Below are positions 21,047 to 29,851 of a stretch of 64,000 nt of DNA, piece after piece (position 1 is the stretch's first letter; every line of letters begins with the position of its first letter). The position numbers and the translations under genes were made by a program. This DNA comes from Prochlorococcus sp. AG-355-N16. GTDB taxonomy: Bacteria; Cyanobacteriota; Cyanobacteriia; PCC-6307; Cyanobiaceae. Where the stretch lies: positions 372,001-436,000 of the forward strand of contig QCEF01000001.1 of assembly GCA_003278545.1 (NCBI GenBank). The letters are read 5' to 3'. The notes beneath the pieces were generated by a model. It had not been told where the DNA came from. It ran no database searches and saw only the letters and a list, made by a program, of their open reading frames with translations.

Positions 21047-22030
21047 GTGCAATTTATTGATCAGGCAAACATTATTCTAAAAGCTGGAAAAGGTGGAAAT
21101 GGAATAGTTTCATTTAGAAGAGAAAAATTCGTTCCTGCTGGAGGACCTTCCGGGGGGAATGGTGGCAGAGGGGGTTCAGTTATTTTGATGGCTGATAATA
21201 ATCTTCAAACATTATTAGATTTTAAATTCAAACGAGAAATAATTGCTGAAGATGGATGCAAAGGAGGTCCTAATAAGAGGTCAGGTGCTTCAGGTGAGGA
21301 TAGGATCCTTAAAGTTCCCTGCGGCACAGAAATAAGGGATATTAAAACCGGCATAATTTTAGGAGACTTAACTAAAGATAAACAGAGCTTAACTATTGCC
21401 ATTGGAGGAAGAGGTGGACATGGTAATGCTTATTATTTAAGTAATCAAAATAGAGCCCCAGAATCATTTACTGAAGGAAAAGATGGTGAGATATGGGAGG
21501 TTCAATTAGAACTAAAACTTCTTGCAGAAGTTGGAATTATAGGCCTTCCCAATGCTGGTAAAAGTACTTTGATTTCCGTAGTATCATCTGCCCGTCCAAA
21601 AATCGCAAATTATCCTTTCACGACTCTAATACCTAACTTAGGTGTAGTAAGAAAAATTGATGGTAATGGTTGCCTTTTTGCTGATATTCCTGGACTAATA
21701 TCAGGTGCAGCTGATGGAGTAGGTTTAGGGCATGATTTTTTAAGGCATATCCAAAGAACTAAGATACTTGTTCACTTAATTGATGCAATTGCAGAAAATC
21801 CTTTATATGATTTTGAGATTATTGAGCAGGAATTAAAAAAATATGGCAAAGGTCTTTTAGATAAAGAAAGGATAATAGTATTGAATAAAATGGAGCTTGT
21901 AGATGATGAATATTTGAAAATAATTACAAAAAAGTTAGAAGATTTATCTAAAAAGAAAGTTTTAGTTATTTCTTCATCTTTAAAAAAAGGTTTATCTTCA
22001 CTGCTTTCTGAAGTATGGAAGAGGATTTAA
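21047..22030 (+). CDS. obg: Obg-family GTPase (ObgE/CgtA)
   Basis: Ribosome-assembly GTPase. The glycine-rich Obg fold occupies about residues 1-158 ([26 protein letters not shown]). The G domain follows with G1 GLPNAGKST, switch I PFTTL, G3 DIPGLI and G4 NKMEL. It ends at 327 residues and lacks the C-terminal OCT domain found in Bacillus and E. coli relatives. The start is GTG at 21047. It follows mutS2 by 41 bp on the same strand. Confidence 0.95.
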
Positions 22031-22116
22031 TTTAAATTAAAAATTTTTTTGTAGAAAAATATACTTGATTTAATAATGAAAATTAGTCATAAATAAGATA
22101 CGTCTTTATAAACAAT

Positions 22117-22299
22117 ATGAATTTCTATACTTGTTTTGATCAACAAGGAAAAATAATAGCTAGATGTCAAACGATACAAGATATCGAGGTTTTGAAGAAA
22201 ATGGGAAGACCAATTGTAGAAGTCAAGGAAATGAAAAATGAGGAATCGGTTGTTTGTTCGCTTACAGGAAGTCCATCCGACTTTAATAGAGATTACTAA
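22117..22299 (+). CDS. Conserved small protein of unknown function
   Basis: Not recognised. The 60-residue product is soluble, with an N-terminal beta-like segment (NFYTCFDQQGKIIAR) and a central stretch ending GRPIVEVKEMKN. It contains two cysteines. An overlapping 74-residue frame exists on the other strand, but this strand fits better because it runs with obg and ends just before a strong terminator at 22314-22341. Confidence 0.6.
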   Translation: MNFYTCFDQQGKIIARCQTIQDIEVLKKMGRPIVEVKEMKNEESVVCSLTGSPSDFNRDY

Positions 22300-22313
22300 A
22301 GAATTTAACAAAT

Positions 22314-22341
22314 AAAAAAAAGGGCTTTAGAGCCCTTTTTT
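22314..22341 (+). terminator. Bidirectional intrinsic terminator
   Basis: AGGGCT (22321-22326) pairs with AGCCCT (22331-22336) around a TTAG loop. The stem is flanked by an A-run on the left and a T-run on the right, so it can end transcription from obg and the 60-residue gene on the plus strand and from cp12 on the minus strand. Confidence 0.85.
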
Positions 22342-22368
22342 AATGTGCATTATCGATCAAAAGAAAAC

Positions 22369-22587
22369 TTAATCATCATAAACAAGACATTCCGGTTCAT
22401 CCGGATTGGCATCGCAGAAAAGTTCCAAAGCATTAGGGTCATGTTTATCCTCTGGATGATGATCCTTATATTCTTCGAGTTCTTTTAGCTCTTCAGTTAA
22501 ATGTCTGACCTTTGGAAGATTGCCCTCTGCTTTTGCAGATTCGATTTCCGATTGATCTTTTTGAATGTGTTCGTCAATGGATTTCAT
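22369..22587 (-). CDS. cp12: CP12 Calvin-cycle regulator, C-terminal-cysteine form
   Basis: Small disordered protein that bridges GAPDH and phosphoribulokinase in the dark and inactivates both. The 72-residue sequence is highly charged and ends in the CP12 signature ALELFCDANPDEPEC, with cysteines at about 58 and 67, then LVYDD, the tail that enters the GAPDH active site. The N-terminal cysteine pair of plant CP12, which binds PRK, is missing, and the AWD-VEEL core is degenerate. Forms with only the C-terminal pair are known in cyanobacteria. Gene stands alone, bounded by the terminator at 22314-22341. Confidence 0.85.
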   Translation of the reverse strand: MKSIDEHIQKDQSEIESAKAEGNLPKVRHLTEELKELEEYKDHHPEDKHDPNALELFCDANPDEPECLVYDD

Positions 22588-22715
22588 TTTAAGCTTTTCG
22601 TACTTTAGTAGACATACATAACATAGTTAATTTCTAATGAAATTGCATTATCTATAAACTAAATAAGTGTTCATTACAACATCATTTTTTTTTCTAAATT
22701 GATTTATGTATTTTT

Positions 22716-23660
22716 TTAGGACTCTATTCTCATTATTTCCTCTAAAGATGGCAAAACTGGGATTAGTTGATTTGGGTTTAAAGGGAATAAAGCTTTGTAG
22801 TAATCTTTTTTCCATTCATTGTCGAAGCATGTCCTTTTTACGTTAGATAAGTTAAAGAATTTTAATCTCCATTCAATAATCTTTTCGAAACTTGATAGTT
22901 CTTTTTCAGTGCATTTGAAAAGTTTGCTATATATCAATTCCCATCTTATAAGCGTTGGAAAAAGGTAAATATCTGCGTAGGTTAACTCATCTCCAAACAT
23001 CCAGTCCCCTTTGTTTTTCTCTAGTAAATTTTCAACTTCTTTGATAGCTGCGAAAAGATTTTGACTTGCTTTTTCGTAAGCTGACTGTTTTCTGGCGAAA
23101 CCACATTTATATACGCCATCATTAATGCTGTTATTAATTAAATCTAAAAATTTTTGATTACAATCTTTGATTCTTAATTTCTGATATTTCGATTCACTTT
23201 TTATTGAATTGAGCAATCTTATAATCTGTGAACTTTCATTAGACAAAATATTTACTTCATCTTTTACAAAACTAATTAAAAGAGGTAATGTAGCTCTAAA
23301 AATAATCTTTTCATTAGCTTTTTTGTAAAGGTCTGAAAGTCTCATACATCCTTTAATACTTGTATTGAAAATCCATTCGCCATGCTCAACATCTGCTTTT
23401 AAAAAAATAACCTTAACTTTTTTTGATAAATATTTTATTTCGTGGACGAGTAAAGTTCTTTGACACCATGGACAAGAATGACCTACTAATAAATAAATTT
23501 GTCCATTCTCATTATTAATATCGTATTCACTATTAATGGTTATACCTTTAGGCCTTTTATAATTACCTTGTAAATCTGATGGCGCGAAGCCATTCATTAA
23601 TTGGGTCCAAAACCAAAACCAGAATTTTCTGGAAACCTTTATAAGGTATTTATTTTGCAT
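22716..23660 (-). CDS. Glutathione S-transferase of the ECM4/YqjG (Xi) family
   Basis: Related to glutathionyl-hydroquinone reductases, which remove glutathione from quinol conjugates. The thioredoxin-like N-domain carries the active cysteine in HSCPWCQRTLL. Family markers SNESSQIIRLLN, the INDGVYKCGFA helix and TYADIYLFPTLIRWE follow. The motif is CPWC, while most family members have CPWA. The protein is 314 residues, near the usual 320-330. It is divergent from the aspartoacylase-family gene, with 23 bp between the starts. Confidence 0.78.
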   Translation of the reverse strand: MQNKYLIKVSRKFWFWFWTQLMNGFAPSDLQGNYKRPKGITINSEYDINNENGQIYLLVGHSCPWCQRTLLVHEIKYLSKKVKVIFLKADVEHGEWIFNTSIKGCMRLSDLYKKANEKIIFRATLPLLISFVKDEVNILSNESSQIIRLLNSIKSESKYQKLRIKDCNQKFLDLINNSINDGVYKCGFARKQSAYEKASQNLFAAIKEVENLLEKNKGDWMFGDELTYADIYLFPTLIRWELIYSKLFKCTEKELSSFEKIIEWRLKFFNLSNVKRTCFDNEWKKDYYKALFPLNPNQLIPVLPSLEEIMRIES

Positions 23661-23683
23661 AAAATTTTATTTTTAAAGAAAAA

Positions 23684-24589
23684 ATGACTGTTCAAAGAAT
23701 ACTTATTGTTTCAGGTACTCATGGGAATGAAATTAATCCTGTTTGGGCTGTTAAGCAATTTAATAGAAAGGAAAATAGTTTAAATAATGGTATTGAGTAT
23801 GAGTACATCATAGGTAATCCTGCTGCCTATGAAAAAGGTTGCAGATATATAGATGTAGATTTAAATAGATCTTTTAAAGAAAGTGAGAATTTTGATCAAC
23901 ACAATAATAGCTTTTATGAAACTAATAGAGCCAATTTTTTAGTAGATGAATTTGGAATTGACGGATCTAAACCCTGTCAAATTGCAATCGATTTGCACAC
24001 TACTACTGCAAATATGGGAACGAGCATTGTTATGTATGGGAGGAGATCCAAAGATTTTTGTTTAGCTGCATTACTGCAGAATAAATTTGGATTGCCTATT
24101 TATTTGCACGAAAAAGATAAAGCCCAAACAGGATTTCTTGTAGAGGCTTGGCCATGTGGTTTAGTTATTGAAATAGGAGCTGTCGCACAAAATTTTTATG
24201 ATCAAAATATCATAAATAGATTCTCTCTAATAATTAGTTCCCTAAGGGAAGAGATAGATAAATTAAAAAATAACTTTATAGAACTTCCAAAGGAATTAGT
24301 GGTTCACGTTCATCAAGAGAGTATAGATTACCCAAGAGATGAAAAGGGAGATATTGATGGCCTAATTCACCCTAAGAGAATAAACCAAGATTGGAAAATG
24401 ATTAAAAAAGGAGATCCATTATTTCTGGATAGCCAAGGAATAATCCACAAATATGAACGGGACCAATTGATTTGGCCTGTTTTTATTGGAGAAGTTGCTT
24501 ATAAGGAAAAAAAAATTGCCATGAGCTACACAAAAAAAGAAGTGATTTGTTCCAAAAAACAATGGGTTCAAGAGTTTGAAAGTTTTTAA
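23684..24589 (+). CDS. Aspartoacylase / succinylglutamate desuccinylase family zinc hydrolase
   Basis: Zinc carboxypeptidase fold acting on N-acyl amino acids. Zinc ligands are visible as His and Glu in SGTHGNEINP and His in AIDLHTTT. The substrate arginine region is VDLNRSF and the catalytic glutamate lies in VIEIGAVAQ. The 301-residue length matches aspartoacylase. True substrate is unknown in Prochlorococcus, where there is no N-acetylaspartate pathway known to me. It ends 119 bp before the broken ORF next to psbA. Confidence 0.82.
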   Translation: MTVQRILIVSGTHGNEINPVWAVKQFNRKENSLNNGIEYEYIIGNPAAYEKGCRYIDVDLNRSFKESENFDQHNNSFYETNRANFLVDEFGIDGSKPCQIAIDLHTTTANMGTSIVMYGRRSKDFCLAALLQNKFGLPIYLHEKDKAQTGFLVEAWPCGLVIEIGAVAQNFYDQNIINRFSLIISSLREEIDKLKNNFIELPKELVVHVHQESIDYPRDEKGDIDGLIHPKRINQDWKMIKKGDPLFLDSQGIIHKYERDQLIWPVFIGEVAYKEKKIAMSYTKKEVICSKKQWVQEFESF

Positions 24590-24707
24590 ATTAAGAAACC
24601 GGAACAATAAATCGTTGAAAATTAATAAGGATTTTTTATTTTATAGATAAGTTTATTTAATATTTAATACTTTATTTTTTTTTTTTCTAATTTTTAAACC
24701 TTAAAAA

Positions 24708-24873
24708 CTAAATTCTTTCACTCCAGTAAATAATAGCTCCAAAAGCCTCTAATTGCAGTCTTCTATGCTTAGCCTCTCTTAAGGTAACTACCTCTCTGGA
24801 TCTTTTCCCGTTAAGAAGCCATTCGATTATTACCAAGTTGAATTCCTCAATAACAAAGAAAATCTTAAGACAT
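24708..24873 (-). pseudogene. Small frameshifted ORF divergent from psbA
   Basis: On the minus strand AGGAG (24890-24886) precedes an ATG at 24873, but the second codon is followed by a TAA. Shifting by one base at about 24867-24870 opens a 52-codon frame to the TAG at 24708. The predicted product begins M-S-K-I-F-F and has EWLLNGKRSREVV, EAKHRRLQLE and ends IIYWSERI. Codon choice is richer in G+C than the flanking DNA and resembles psbA. It could be a pseudogene, a sequencing error, or a programmed +1 frameshift. I do not recognise the family. Confidence 0.5.
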
Positions 24874-24925
24874 TGAAGTTCTTTTCTCCTGTTTTCAAAA
24901 AATAAGTTTATTTAAAGAAAAAATA

Positions 24926-25010
24926 TTTACACATTTTTAGCGATTTTGGTCTAAAATCTTCGAAGCGGAAATTTTTTTCCGTTTTTATTTACACGTCTCA
25001 CTTTAGAGAC
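24926..25010 (+). promoter_or_regulatory. psbA promoter and structured leader
   Basis: A candidate -35 TTTACA (24926-24931) and -10 TAAAAT (24952-24957) lie 20 bp apart, longer than the usual 17. A start near 24964 would put a CGGAAA/TTTCCG hairpin (24966-24981), followed by five T, at the very 5' end of the mRNA. A second hairpin, GTCTC/GAGAC (24995-25010), lies 15 bases before the ATG. No Shine-Dalgarno sequence is present. Hairpins in psbA leaders influence mRNA stability or translation in other cyanobacteria. That role here is inference. Confidence 0.55.
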
Positions 25011-25025
25011 ATACTTTACGAACTC

Positions 25026-26108
25026 ATGACAACTATTCAGCAGCAGCGTTCTTCGCTGTTAAAAGGTTGGCCACAGTTTTGTGAGTGGGTAACATCAACT
25101 AACAACAGAATTTATGTTGGTTGGTTCGGCGTCTTAATGATTCCATGCCTTCTTACAGCAGCGGCTTGCTTCATCGTTGCATTCATCGCAGCGCCACCAG
25201 TAGACATCGACGGAATTAGAGAGCCAGTTGCTGGTTCATTCCTATACGGAAACAACATCATCTCAGGTGCAGTTGTTCCTTCATCTAACGCTATTGGTCT
25301 ACACTTCTACCCAATTTGGGAAGCAGCTACTGTAGATGAGTGGTTATACAACGGTGGTCCTTACCAGCTTGTAATTTTCCACTTCCTAATTGGTATCTCA
25401 GCATACATGGGAAGACAGTGGGAGCTTTCATACCGTTTAGGTATGCGTCCTTGGATCTGTGTTGCATACTCTGCTCCAGTTTCAGCAGCTTTCGCAGTAT
25501 TTCTTGTATACCCATTCGGTCAAGGTTCATTCTCTGACGGAATGCCTCTAGGTATCTCTGGAACATTCAACTTCATGTTTGTTTTCCAGGCAGAGCACAA
25601 CATTCTTATGCACCCATTCCACATGGCTGGTGTTGCTGGTATGTTCGGAGGATCTTTATTCTCAGCTATGCATGGTTCACTTGTTACTTCATCTCTAATC
25701 AGAGAAACAACTGAGACAGAATCTCAGAACTATGGTTACAAGTTTGGACAAGAAGAAGAAACATATAACATCGTTGCAGCTCACGGCTACTTCGGTCGTT
25801 TGATCTTCCAATATGCAAGTTTCAACAACAGCAGAAGTCTTCACTTCTTCCTAGCTGTATTCCCAGTTGTTTGTGTATGGTTAACTTCAATGGGTATCTG
25901 CACAATGGCATTCAACCTTAACGGTTTCAACTTCAACCAGTCAGTTGTTGATGCAAACGGTAAGATTGTTCCTACATGGGGTGACGTTCTTAACAGAGCT
26001 AACCTAGGTATGGAAGTAATGCACGAGCGTAACGCTCACAACTTCCCACTTGATCTAGCAGCAGCTGAGTCTACAACAGTAGCTCTTTCAGCTCCAGCTA
26101 TCGGTTAA
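25026..26108 (+). CDS. psbA: Photosystem II reaction-centre protein D1
   Basis: Carries the water-oxidising manganese ligands, TyrZ, pheophytin and the QB site. The 360-residue protein has five membrane spans. Visible hallmarks are [11 protein letters not shown], the [15 protein letters not shown] segment, the QB loop, and the C-terminal manganese ligands in the [13 protein letters not shown] end. The precursor tail after that alanine is removed by CtpA. The residue equivalent to position 130 is glutamine, as in D1:1-type proteins. The gene is distinctly richer in C-ending codons than its neighbours, typical of very high expression. It has its own promoter and a strong terminator. Confidence 0.99.
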
Positions 26109-26130
26109 GCTTAAAGTTCTTAAACTAATA

Positions 26131-26156
26131 AGCCCCCTTTTTGGGGGCTTTTTTTT
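26131..26156 (+). terminator. psbA intrinsic terminator
   Basis: AGCCCCC (26131-26137) pairs perfectly with GGGGGCT (26143-26149) around a five-T loop, followed by a run of eight T. This is the strongest terminator in the window and isolates psbA from aroC. Confidence 0.93.
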
Positions 26157-26216
26157 GTTTAATTTTCAATTGGTTTCATATAATGTTTATATATAGATAA
26201 AACATTTGATATTTCT

Positions 26217-27314
26217 ATGAGTAGTAGTTTTGGAAAAATTTTTCGTGTTAATACTTTTGGAGAATCACATGGTGGTGCAGTAGGAGTTATCCTGGATGGA
26301 TGTCCCCCTAAGTTAAAAGTAGATATAAATCTAATACAAAATGAATTAGATAGGCGAAGGCCTGGCCAAAGTGACATTACAACACCCAGAAATGAAGAAG
26401 ATAAAATTGAAATATTAAGTGGGATAAAGGAAGGGTTCACACTTGGAACTCCAATAGCGATGTTGGTAAGAAACAAGGATCAAAGACCAGGAGATTATGA
26501 TAATTTGGAGCAAGTATTTAGACCTTCTCATGCAGATGGTACCTATCATCTGAAATATGGAATTCAGGCAAGTTCTGGTGGTGGAAGAGCCTCTGCAAGA
26601 GAAACAATTGGGAGGGTAGCTGCTGGTGCTGTAGCAAAACAATTATTAAAAAAATTCTGTAACACTGAAATACTATCTTGGGTAAAGCGTATACATGATA
26701 TTGATTCTGATATAAATAAAGAAAAGATTTCTCTCAACAAAATAGATTCTAATATTGTTAGATGTCCTGATGACCAGGTATCAGCAGAAATGATAGAGAG
26801 AATTAAGCAATTAAAGCGTCAAGGAGACTCTTGTGGCGGTGTTATTGAATGTCTAGTAAGAAATGTCCCTTCTGGTCTTGGAATGCCTGTTTTTGATAAA
26901 TTAGAAGCTGATTTAGCGAAGGCTTTGATGTCTTTGCCTGCCACAAAAGGCTTTGAAATAGGTTCAGGTTTCTCTGGAACTTATTTAAAAGGAAGCGAAC
27001 ATAATGATGCCTTCATTAAATCTGATGATATAAAGAAGTTAAGAACAATATCTAATAATTCAGGAGGTATACAGGGAGGAATAAGTAATGGCGAAAATAT
27101 TGAGATGAAGATAGCTTTTAAACCTACAGCAACTATCGGGAAAGAACAGAAAACAGTAAATGCTGAAGGGAAAGAAGTTTTGATGAAAGCGAAAGGGAGA
27201 CATGATCCATGCGTTCTACCAAGAGCAGTTCCTATGGTTGATGCTATGGTAGCTTTAGTACTTGCTGATCATTTACTACTGAATCAAGCTCAATGTGGCT
27301 TAATCAATAATTAG
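26217..27314 (+). CDS. aroC: Chorismate synthase
   Basis: Last step of the shikimate pathway: converts EPSP to chorismate using reduced FMN. The three family signatures are visible: [17 protein letters not shown] near the start, the [18 protein letters not shown] block, and the C-terminal [19 protein letters not shown]. At 365 residues the length is normal. It starts at ATG 26217, about 60 bp after the psbA terminator. Confidence 0.98.
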
Positions 27315-27348
27315 TAGTTTTGTTAAATAAATTATATTTATCTTTGAT

Positions 27349-27975
27349 TTAATTATTTTTGAGCCATTCATATATTTTTGGATCAAATTTTTTTTTAATA
27401 ATACCTTTATCTCCAATCACGATTGCTTTATATCCTAAAGATTGATAAGTTTTTACATCATTGATTGATAGGCCTCCAGCAGCAATAAAAGTAATACTTT
27501 CAAAGTTGAGTATATCTATTGAACTAGCTTTACTTTTGATTGGATAAATTTTGATAATGTTGCAATTTAAATTTATGGCTTCCTCAAGATCTTTTAAATT
27601 TTTAATTCCAGGTATTAATAAATAATTTTTTGACTTCGAATAAATAAAAAGATCTTTGTCCCAAAATTTCATCATAGAAAAATTTAATCCAATTTTTAAT
27701 GAATCTTCAATTGATTTCTTATTAACAATGGAGGAAGAGCCTAAATAAATTTGTGGAAAATTGAGTTTGATTTCGGATACAAAATCCAACCACTTTTCGT
27801 TGTTTGACCAACGTATTTCAATATTTTTTAATCCTAATTTTACTAAGTATCCTAATTCTTCAAAAAATGAATTTCTTATAGAAGTATTTGAGTAAATATT
27901 ATCTTCCGGTTTTACGAGTAAAAAAAAAGATTCTTTTAGCAGCAAGTCAGAAAAAGAATCTTCTTTAATATTCAT
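27349..27975 (-). CDS. eda: KDPG/KHG aldolase family protein
   Basis: Class I aldolase with a TIM-barrel fold. The catalytic glutamate is in KNIEIRWS and the Schiff-base lysine in IIKIYPIK. The phosphate-binding end is AAGGLSIND followed by AIVIGDKG. Eda completes the Entner-Doudoroff route, known to operate in cyanobacteria including Prochlorococcus. The sequence is divergent from E. coli Eda, so specificity is inferred. It lies 19 bp downstream of ftsH on the same strand. Confidence 0.8.
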   Translation of the reverse strand: MNIKEDSFSDLLLKESFFLLVKPEDNIYSNTSIRNSFFEELGYLVKLGLKNIEIRWSNNEKWLDFVSEIKLNFPQIYLGSSSIVNKKSIEDSLKIGLNFSMMKFWDKDLFIYSKSKNYLLIPGIKNLKDLEEAINLNCNIIKIYPIKSKASSIDILNFESITFIAAGGLSINDVKTYQSLGYKAIVIGDKGIIKKKFDPKIYEWLKNN

Positions 27976-27994
27976 TAAATATTTATTTTTAAAA

Positions 27995-29851
27995 CTAAAT
28001 ATAATTCGCTACTTTAACTTCTGATCGGTTGAGCAAATCTTGGATATCTTCAGTGTCTATAGTTTCTCTTTCAATTAGCATTTGAGCCATCTCGTCAAGA
28101 ACAGTTCTATTATCTGTTAAGACTTTTGTAGCTCTTTTATAGGCAACATCAACAAGTTCTGAAACCTCTACATCAATTGTTGCGGCTGTGTCTTCAGAGA
28201 AGTCTCTTGTAGAACTCATATCTCTTCCGAGAAACATTCCACCTTGAGATTGACCTAGAGCGACTGGACCTATTTTGTCGCTCATACCGAATTTAGTAAT
28301 CATTTGTCTGGCTACATTGGCAACTTGTTGTAAATCATTAGAAGCTCCAGTTGTTACTTCTTCTTCGCCATAAACGATTTCTTCAGCAACTCTTCCACCA
28401 AGAGCTACAGCCATTTGATTTTGAAGATAAGAACGAGAGTAAAGACCAGATTCCATTCTTTCTTCACTTGGAGTAAAGAAGGTTAGACCTCCAGCTTGAC
28501 CTCTTGGAATGATTGAAACTTTTGCTACTGGATCATAATCAGGCATTAATGCTCCAACGAGTGCATGACCAGCTTCGTGATAAGCAACTAATTCTTTTTT
28601 CTTATCACTGATGACTCTATCTTTCTTTTCTGGCCCAGCCATAACTCTTTCAATAGCATCACCGACTTCATCGTTACTTACTTTATCTAAATCTTTTCTA
28701 GCTGCTAGAATTGCTGCTTCATTTAAAAGATTAGCTAAATCTGCTCCAGTAAATCCTGGAGTTCTTCTAGCAACTTTATCTAGATCAACGTCTTTTGAAA
28801 GAGTTTTATCTTTCGCATGAACATTTAATATCTGTAATCTTCCAGCATAATCTGGTCTATCTACTGTTACCTGTCTATCGAATCTTCCAGGGCGCATTAA
28901 AGCTGAATCTAAGACATCTGGTCTGTTAGTGGCAGCAACTATTATTATTCCAGAATTACCTTCGAAACCATCCATTTCGGTTAGGAGTTGATTTAATGTT
29001 TGTTCTCTTTCATCATTTCCTCCGCCCATACCAGCGCCTCTTTGTCTTCCAACTGCATCTATTTCATCAATAAACACAATGCAAGGAGCATTCTTTTTAG
29101 CTTGTTCAAAAAGATCTCTAACTCTGCTAGCTCCAACACCTACAAACATCTCAACAAATTCTGAACCAGATATTGAGAAGAAAGGTACACCTGCTTCTCC
29201 AGCAACTGCTTTTGCTAACAATGTTTTACCCGTACCAGGAGGGCCGACAAGAAGAACTCCTTTTGGAATTTTTGCTCCGACTGCGGTAAATCTGTCTGGG
29301 CTCTTAAGAAAATCTACAACTTCTGTAAGTTCTAATTTTGCACCTTCAACACCGGCAACATCTGAAAAGGTTACTTGTGTAGATGGTTCCATTTGCAATC
29401 TAGCTTTGCTCTTGCCAAAACTCATGGCAGGGTTACCACCACCTCCAGCATTACCACTTTGGGATCTTCTGAAAAGAAAAAATAGGCCTCCAATTAAAAG
29501 TACTGGAAAAATCAAGCTACTTATAGCCTGTTGCCATGGATTAGCTAATTTTGTAGGAGTTACAGCTATATCTACATTATTCTCAGTCAAGATTTTTAAT
29601 AAGTCTTTATCAGGGGCTAAATTGACCTCAGACCTGCTTCCATCATTTTCAACAACTTGAGCTGTGGCATTATCTGGAGATATTAGGACTCTACTGATTT
29701 CTTTATCTTGCACTGCTTCTATAAAATCACTATATCTTAAGGTCTTTGTGGAACTTTCAGTACTAGGTTTATCAAAAACTGAAGTACCAATGAAAATTAC
29801 AGTAATAACAGCTAGGACATAAAGTCCTACGTTTCTCCAACGTTTGTTCAC
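27995..29851 (-). CDS. ftsH: FtsH ATP-dependent zinc metalloprotease
   Basis: Membrane AAA+ protease that removes photodamaged D1 in thylakoids. The N-terminus has two membrane spans (about 8-27 and 115-132) flanking a lumenal domain. The AAA core has Walker [14 protein letters not shown] (about 205) and the SRH motif [18 protein letters not shown]. The protease motif is HEAGH (about 430). At 618 residues it matches the cyanobacterial thylakoid FtsH2/FtsH8 type. Its position close to psbA suits repair, though cyanobacteria have several paralogues. Confidence 0.95.

Follow-up and report, generated by a model that had tools for sequence, protein, structure and literature searches.

Does the DNA beside psbA in this Prochlorococcus genome hold a small gene broken by a frameshift, or a whole gene that has been read from the wrong start? 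On the minus strand of the window (the whole stretch of 64,000 nucleotides analysed), an AGGAG at 24890-24886 is followed by an ATG at 24873-24871, the codon TCT and a TAA stop at 24867-24865. From this arrangement the original prediction drew a frameshifted gene whose product of 54 residues would end in IIYWSERI. The AGGAG, the ATG and the stop after two codons are present as described and the frame does end in IIYWSERI, but the 12 extra residues of the longer product were observed not to be conserved as protein. An in-frame TTG (24836-24834) behind a GAGG gives a complete ORF of 42 residues which closes at a TAG (24710-24708), has IIYWSERI as its C-terminus and is missing no part, and which matches a family of 42 positions from end to end. 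The small gene is an intact member of the known family cyano_YWSERL, an ordinary TTG-start gene that had been misread. We put the probability of this anatomy, together with the absence of a frameshift, at about 0.9. A false frameshift is thus removed and the start is fixed for a gene which is easily misread, having a TTG start with an ATG upstream. The features are collected in Table 1.

Table 1. Features of the locus and of its phage relatives, with the basis for each
Feature	Coordinates	Strand	Basis or remark
Small gene, intact, 42 residues	24708..24836	-	ORF, NF058615 match, pN/pS, aligned start
GAGG, Shine-Dalgarno-like	24845..24848	-	Conserved columns
Two-A run with extra A	24843..24844	-	Leader alignments; unique to the window among 83
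TTAAGAT, putative -10 element of the small gene	24862..24868	-	Position and conservation; fits TAnnnT
AGGAG...ATG-TCT-TAA, apparent start and stop	24865..24890	-	Overlaps promoter-like motif; not the start of the gene
psbA (D1)	25026..26108	+	TIGR01151, 746 bits; divergent, 189 nt from the TTG
Aspartoacylase-like gene	23684..24589	+	NF002601, 402 bits; convergent neighbour
Relative in S-CBS4	L143 1486-1626 = record 4880-4740	-	Unannotated in the S-CBS4 record
Phage relatives in IMG/VR	L211 2711-2839; L212 5004-5132; L216 2264-2392		
Phage relatives in IMG/VR	L213, L215, L217 and L219, 4998-5126 each		

Family membership and start codon of the small gene

The 42-residue product was found to match NCBIfam NF058615.1 (cyano_YWSERL) over model positions 1-42 of 42 with 85.9 bits (E 1.3e-24), where the curated cut-off is 50 bits. 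It has the same length as this YWSERL motif small protein, carries YWSERI at its C-terminus and differs from the family in no feature tested. Across 38 aligned rows the Y, W, S and R of the YWSER[L/I] C-terminus are invariant and the E is nearly so. A Pfam search with the product returned no family at E<=10, and PHROGs gave one weak match only, with an E of 0.044 (0.21 with a typed consensus). The terms YWSERL, YWSERI and NF058615 were not found in the literature searched, and this small gene is not named in the accessible parts of PMC2518516 and PMC5069720.

The start codon lies at a single aligned position in 48 of 50 loci, with TTG in 33, ATG in 11 and GTG in 4; the remaining two are L018, whose reading frame breaks further into the gene, and L020, which matched by chance. 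A second set holds 83 leaders, from 80 named genome loci, two IMG/VR contigs and the window; here TTG was observed as the start in 82 and ATG in one. The four GAGG letters are kept in 79, 80, 76 and 81 respectively of the 82 loci other than the window, and the spacing from GAGG to TTG is 8 nt in the window and 7 nt in most relatives. For initiation the ribosome would use this GAGG and the TTG at 24836.

Conservation and selection

Homologues of the small gene are abundant, and the open frame is not the coincidence that it was expected to be if none existed anywhere. When 400 genomes of the window's taxonomic family were sampled, 220 had an NF058615 match at E<=0.001 and 218 exceeded the cut-off; a class-wide sample of 291 genomes holds 24 above the cut-off, all within that family. 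The small ORF is conserved across this family to a degree that is more than chance. A further 46 genomes of the class-wide sample gave sub-cut-off matches at E<=0.1, which we have taken as chance; one of 14 control genomes (Sulfolobus acidocaldarius) matches likewise. No NF058615 match was found in six genomes of the window's genus, among those listed.

The small gene is under purifying selection. A pN/pS of 0.125 was obtained from 81 coding sequences, 70 of them distinct, which comprise the window and the 80 named loci. Furthermore, over 41 codons the variable columns number 14, 7 and 31 at the first, second and third codon positions. The gene has decayed in two of the loci, L018 (frame broken) and L019 (stops within), where the leader motif is still recognisable. 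Copies of psbA were noticed on either side of the small gene in L018 and L019 and also in L017, where the gene is intact, and the two psbA copies of L019 are identical over the 1074 bases compared.

The leader and the apparent frameshift

In 79 of the 83 leaders three codons separate an in-frame stop from the start, and in two others nine codons do. Within the 60 bases compared, only the window and one locus with a leader one base shorter have no in-frame stop. The sequence ATG-N-CTTAA lies 36 nt from the start in 74 leaders, 35 nt in one and 37 nt in one, the window itself, and is missing in seven. At 36 nt the ATG shares the frame of the small gene, yet it is cut off from it by stops. The window differs from most relatives by one extra A located between the GAGG and the start (GAGGAATTC in the window, GAGGATTC in most relatives). 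The ATG is out of frame in the window because of this extra A, and the 54-residue frame is open there because the same base abolishes the near in-frame stop. Given the stops and the variable distance of the ATG, we conclude that the leader is not translated into protein and that the open frame of 54 residues arose by accident. Open frames of at least 56 codons were also noticed upstream of the start in seven loci of other genera (L031, L033, L035, L042, L043, L050 and L053). Their leaders are unlike that of the window beyond the TTAA motif, and in these loci too the match to the family model begins only at the start common to all.

Three other accounts of the ATG were weighed against an ordinary gene starting at TTG. 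If the gene were broken here, a one-base change would have put the ATG of an ancestral 54-residue protein out of frame. It would then be expected, as is seen, that the AGGAG and ATG run into a stop and that the frame downstream is open without an ATG, and the one other leader of the 83 that is open upstream is itself one base shorter. However, not one of the 83 leaders has the ATG in frame and uninterrupted, so that the intact ATG-start homologue on which this account depends was not observed. Most of the 79 leaders with an in-frame stop just before the TTG also carry ATG-TCT-TAA, and relatives with intact coding regions keep the same interrupted leader. The family model spans only 42 positions, all of which the match covers, and the coding region is intact in a family under purifying selection. 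On the leader alignments, the fixed position of the start and the purifying selection, a frameshifted or decayed gene was rejected as extremely improbable. A programmed frameshift from the ATG-TCT leader into the small gene, which conservation of the shift had been expected to indicate, is in our view just as improbable. ATG[TC]CTTAA does occur in 74 of the 83 leaders, but in the relatives the ATG and the gene stand mostly in the same frame with stops between them and no single shift joins both. In addition, the distance of the ATG is off by one base in both directions and the ATG is missing in seven leaders and in other genera; no consistent shift was found in the 83 leaders, and this explanation was rejected as well.

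The remaining account makes ATG-TCT-TAA an upstream ORF of two codons with a regulatory effect on translation of the small gene. It is also improbable, if somewhat less so than the other two. ATG-TCT-TAA is conserved in most close relatives, an AGGAG-like sequence precedes the ATG in the window and some relatives, and among the 82 leaders other than the window 80 keep the A of the ATG and 81 its T. The G stands out, with only 75 keeping it, whereas the counts for the successive letters of CTTAA are 81, 81, 82, 81 and 82. The AGGAG region is variable, and ATG-TCT-TAA is absent from the leaders of other genera, which retain the TTAA motif alone. The conservation of the leader letters and the leaders of other genera thus disfavour an upstream ORF.

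The TTAAGAT motif

In the window TTAAGAT is located 32 nt upstream of the start. All 48 listed loci, other genera included, have the pattern TTAA[GTC][AG]T at a distance of 30-38 nt upstream of the start; L018 and L020 had been left out beforehand. Other genera supplied 27 loci, with 24 different leaders of 45 nt; TTAA[GT][AG]T occurs within -40 to -28 in 25 of these loci, whereas over 2000 rounds of shuffled leaders the mean count was 0.074 and the highest 2. The two exceptions are L146, where the motif lies at -27, and L147, an extra copy of the gene not beside psbA, which has none. The distance from the motif to psbA varies from 129 to 301 nt in 13 loci of other genera, and the motif therefore goes with the small gene.

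TAnnnT is the cyanobacterial -10 consensus. By its position and conservation, TTAAGAT is a putative -10 element of the small gene. Transcription would start just downstream of it, so that the overlapping ATG-TCT-TAA would be promoter DNA and untranslated. A transcription-factor site or an RNA element in place of a -10 box is unlikely, although it is a more serious contender than any of the accounts of the ATG given above. In favour of such a site, Prochlorococcus-type genomes share a longer conserved stretch of leader, the intergenic region also contains a conserved palindrome-like GATTTTAGACCAAAATC (24958-24942), and a consensus promoter scan listed no sigma-70-type promoter on the strand of the small gene. 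Against it stands the spacing of the motif, which is tied to the small gene and not to psbA; the lack of the motif in L147 is compatible with the -10 reading and with a factor site or RNA element alike. Considering the conservation among close relatives, the leader may have some role at the RNA level. An Rfam search of 22000-28000 gave eight matches up to E 1, all under their gathering scores and none overlapping 24708-25025, and a structured RNA at the small gene was set aside as a candidate. It is possible that GATTTTAGACCAAAATC is a shared regulatory site in the psbA intergenic region. The same consensus scan lists on the psbA strand a promoter-like hexamer, TAAAAT, which overlaps this sequence.

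Neighbourhood and link to psbA

The usual place of the small gene is head-to-head with psbA, which does lie on the other strand as had been claimed. A divergent psbA was observed 186-193 nt upstream in 76 of the 80 named loci; the other four are cut by contig ends, with 135-137 nt of upstream sequence only. Of the loci L001-L019, which belong to the window's genus, 18 have psbA upstream and one, L014, lies on a contig that ends before psbA would be reached; psbA is also present at all nine later loci of this genus. In other genera psbA is found upstream in 16 of 27 loci. Five of the 27 (L031, L032, L033, L034 and L147) have no psbA in at least 424 upstream bases, and six (L042, L043, L046, L051, L058 and L144) have none within upstream sequences of at most 331 bases. 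Conversely, aspA and psbA lie side by side without the small gene in L151, of the window's genus, and in L152, of another genus. The codon use of the small gene was also claimed to resemble that of psbA, and it is indeed nearer, with a GC3 of 0.349 against 0.38 for psbA and 0.19-0.26 for six nearby genes, the first value being a count over 43 codons only, stop included.

Side observations were made on the loci without psbA. The YWSERL gene of L147 is one of two copies in its genome (G140), and neither psbA nor the upstream motif is beside it. L033 and L034 have YWSERL genes without psbA in 1500 upstream bases, and the divergent open frame found upstream in both is methyltransferase-like by eye.

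The neighbourhood suggests a functional link to D1. As a tentative proposal, which we regard as possible but doubtful, the protein might be a small binding partner acting in photosystem II or D1 production or in its control. Such a partner would explain why the linkage to psbA has lasted and also why the siphoviruses without psbA described below carry a relative.

Predicted fold

The 42-residue protein is predicted to fold as strand-strand-helix-strand. When only host rows were used, the structure model had a mean pLDDT of 87.7 and the other four models 57-72; once six rows from phage were included the mean rose to 89.9 and all five models were at 88-90. Comparison of the predicted model with the fold library gave near-tied matches, every one with Z below 8, and therefore we treat them as leads only. 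When solved structures were searched by sequence, a deneddylase ranked first (E 0.082), and the E values of GspD and ribosomal L7/L12, which came next, exceeded 0.4. The fold libraries yielded no match in the PDB at E<=0.001 and nothing reaching a Z of 8, and the best viral model had an E of 0.039.

The top-ranking structures for the predicted model include two small chains of phycobilisome cores, 8imi_z (Z 6.0, rmsd 1.7, 42 aligned) and 9v7j_Ac (Z 5.8, rmsd 1.6, 42 aligned), which we take to be ApcC-type linkers, judging by their size and the complex. The predicted model may resemble linkers of the CpcD/ApcC type, and it matches a designed miniprotein about as well (Z 5.8, rmsd 1.3, 40 aligned). 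In contrast to this possible likeness of fold, a profile comparison between CpcD (PF01383) and the small protein gave a probability of 2.2 over four columns, where the three scrambled controls listed, out of 40 run, gave 0.7, 0.6 and 0.3. With this value and no Pfam family at E<=10, homology to CpcD by sequence was rejected and only the likeness of fold is kept. The genome of the window has no PF01383 match, so the small protein persists there without that family. Weaker likenesses of the predicted fold were noticed to T7 Gp2 (4llg_N, Z 5.1, rmsd 2.4, 42 aligned) and to RNA polymerase epsilon, YkzG (4njc_B, Z 3.7, rmsd 3.0, 41 aligned). These Z values are in the range expected from a common arrangement, and the two lists of matches by sequence with E<=10 (seven entries and one) contain neither protein.

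Relatives in siphoviruses

A tblastn search of phage records gave a weak match (E 0.3) in Synechococcus phage S-CBS4. It corresponds to an ORF of 46 residues which begins with an ATG overlapping the gp008 stop by four bases and scores 38 bits against NF058615 (E 1.2e-9), below the cut-off of 50. With a profile made of cyanobacterial members only, the ORF beats all 5,000 of its own shuffles (29.3 against at most 14.4 bits) and outscores every other frame in that record, its 27.4 bits comparing with 12.7 for the best of 2013 frames. Profile scans of IMG/VR returned 10 contigs, and a repeat scan returned the same 10. Seven of them are phage with an S-CBS4-like terL; their terL genes are 92-100% identical to that of L212, which in turn is 87% identical to that of S-CBS4. 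The YWSERL ORF lies about 465-500 nt downstream of terL in S-CBS4 and in the seven contigs, and in the latter it is on the same strand as terL at a distance of about 465-480 nt.

The six distinct proteins of these contigs score 52.4, 50.5, 50.1, 48.9, 46.6 and 45.5 bits against NF058615, the seventh contig's protein being identical to that of L217, and with S-CBS4 included the phage relatives range from 38 to 52.4 bits, on either side of the cut-off. Their C-termini read YWSERK and, in S-CBS4, YWTWRQ. For the six distinct phage coding sequences pN is 0.19 and pS is 0.71, the latter near saturation. Neither the S-CBS4 pieces nor the retrieved parts of the seven contigs, which for the longer contigs are flanks only, showed a psbA. 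The original prediction saw its cyanophage interest in psbA, a gene shared with these phages. Phage relatives of the small gene do exist, but they lie beside terL, with no psbA in the DNA examined, and the proposed route through psbA did not hold.

A curated family named for cyanobacteria thus has cyanophage relatives. Homologues in genuine phage genomes, which a phage auxiliary metabolic gene calls for, were found in S-CBS4 and the seven IMG/VR contigs. What raises the finding above an ordinary misreading is this phage branch, which belongs to a siphovirus lineage where no psbA was observed. The accessible part of PMC6157547 describes a freshwater cyanosiphovirus and 15 other sequenced cyanosiphoviruses as lacking psbA and psbD, and other auxiliary genes have been proposed there as replacements for the two. 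Because the cyanosiphoviruses compared in that part of the paper lack both genes, the phage relative of a psbA-adjacent host gene is a concrete candidate for siphovirus influence on photosystem II. YWSERL might be a small regulator or assembly partner of D1 and photosystem II, of which S-CBS4-type siphoviruses carry a relative in the place of psbA that would act on host D1 supply or transcription. We hold this fuller proposal to be unlikely, and less likely than the binding-partner role by itself. If true, it would make YWSERL a candidate for an auxiliary gene that replaces psbA in cyanosiphoviruses, of the kind discussed in the accessible part of PMC6157547.

Host-phage mosaic contigs

The host block aspA-YWSERL-psbA was observed in the other three IMG/VR contigs, L141 (the same as L214 and L226), L142 (the same as L218) and L220. 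These were not counted as phage carriage; in the two whose psbA was compared, this gene is host-like only at its 5' end. The three contigs are host-phage mosaics, probably assembly chimeras formed at a gene which both sides share, though they may be the product of true recombination. Measured against the closest of 76 host copies, the psbA of L141 is 98-100% alike over its first 630 bases and 80-92% over the remainder. The psbA of L142 is host-like only over about its first 270 bases and from base 451 it is mostly 89-99% like that of phage P-HM1, so the break points differ between the two contigs. The DNA beyond psbA in L141 and L142 matches T4-like cyanophages, and beyond the psbA of L220 there is an ORF which by eye is closely similar to one of the phage-side ORFs of L142.
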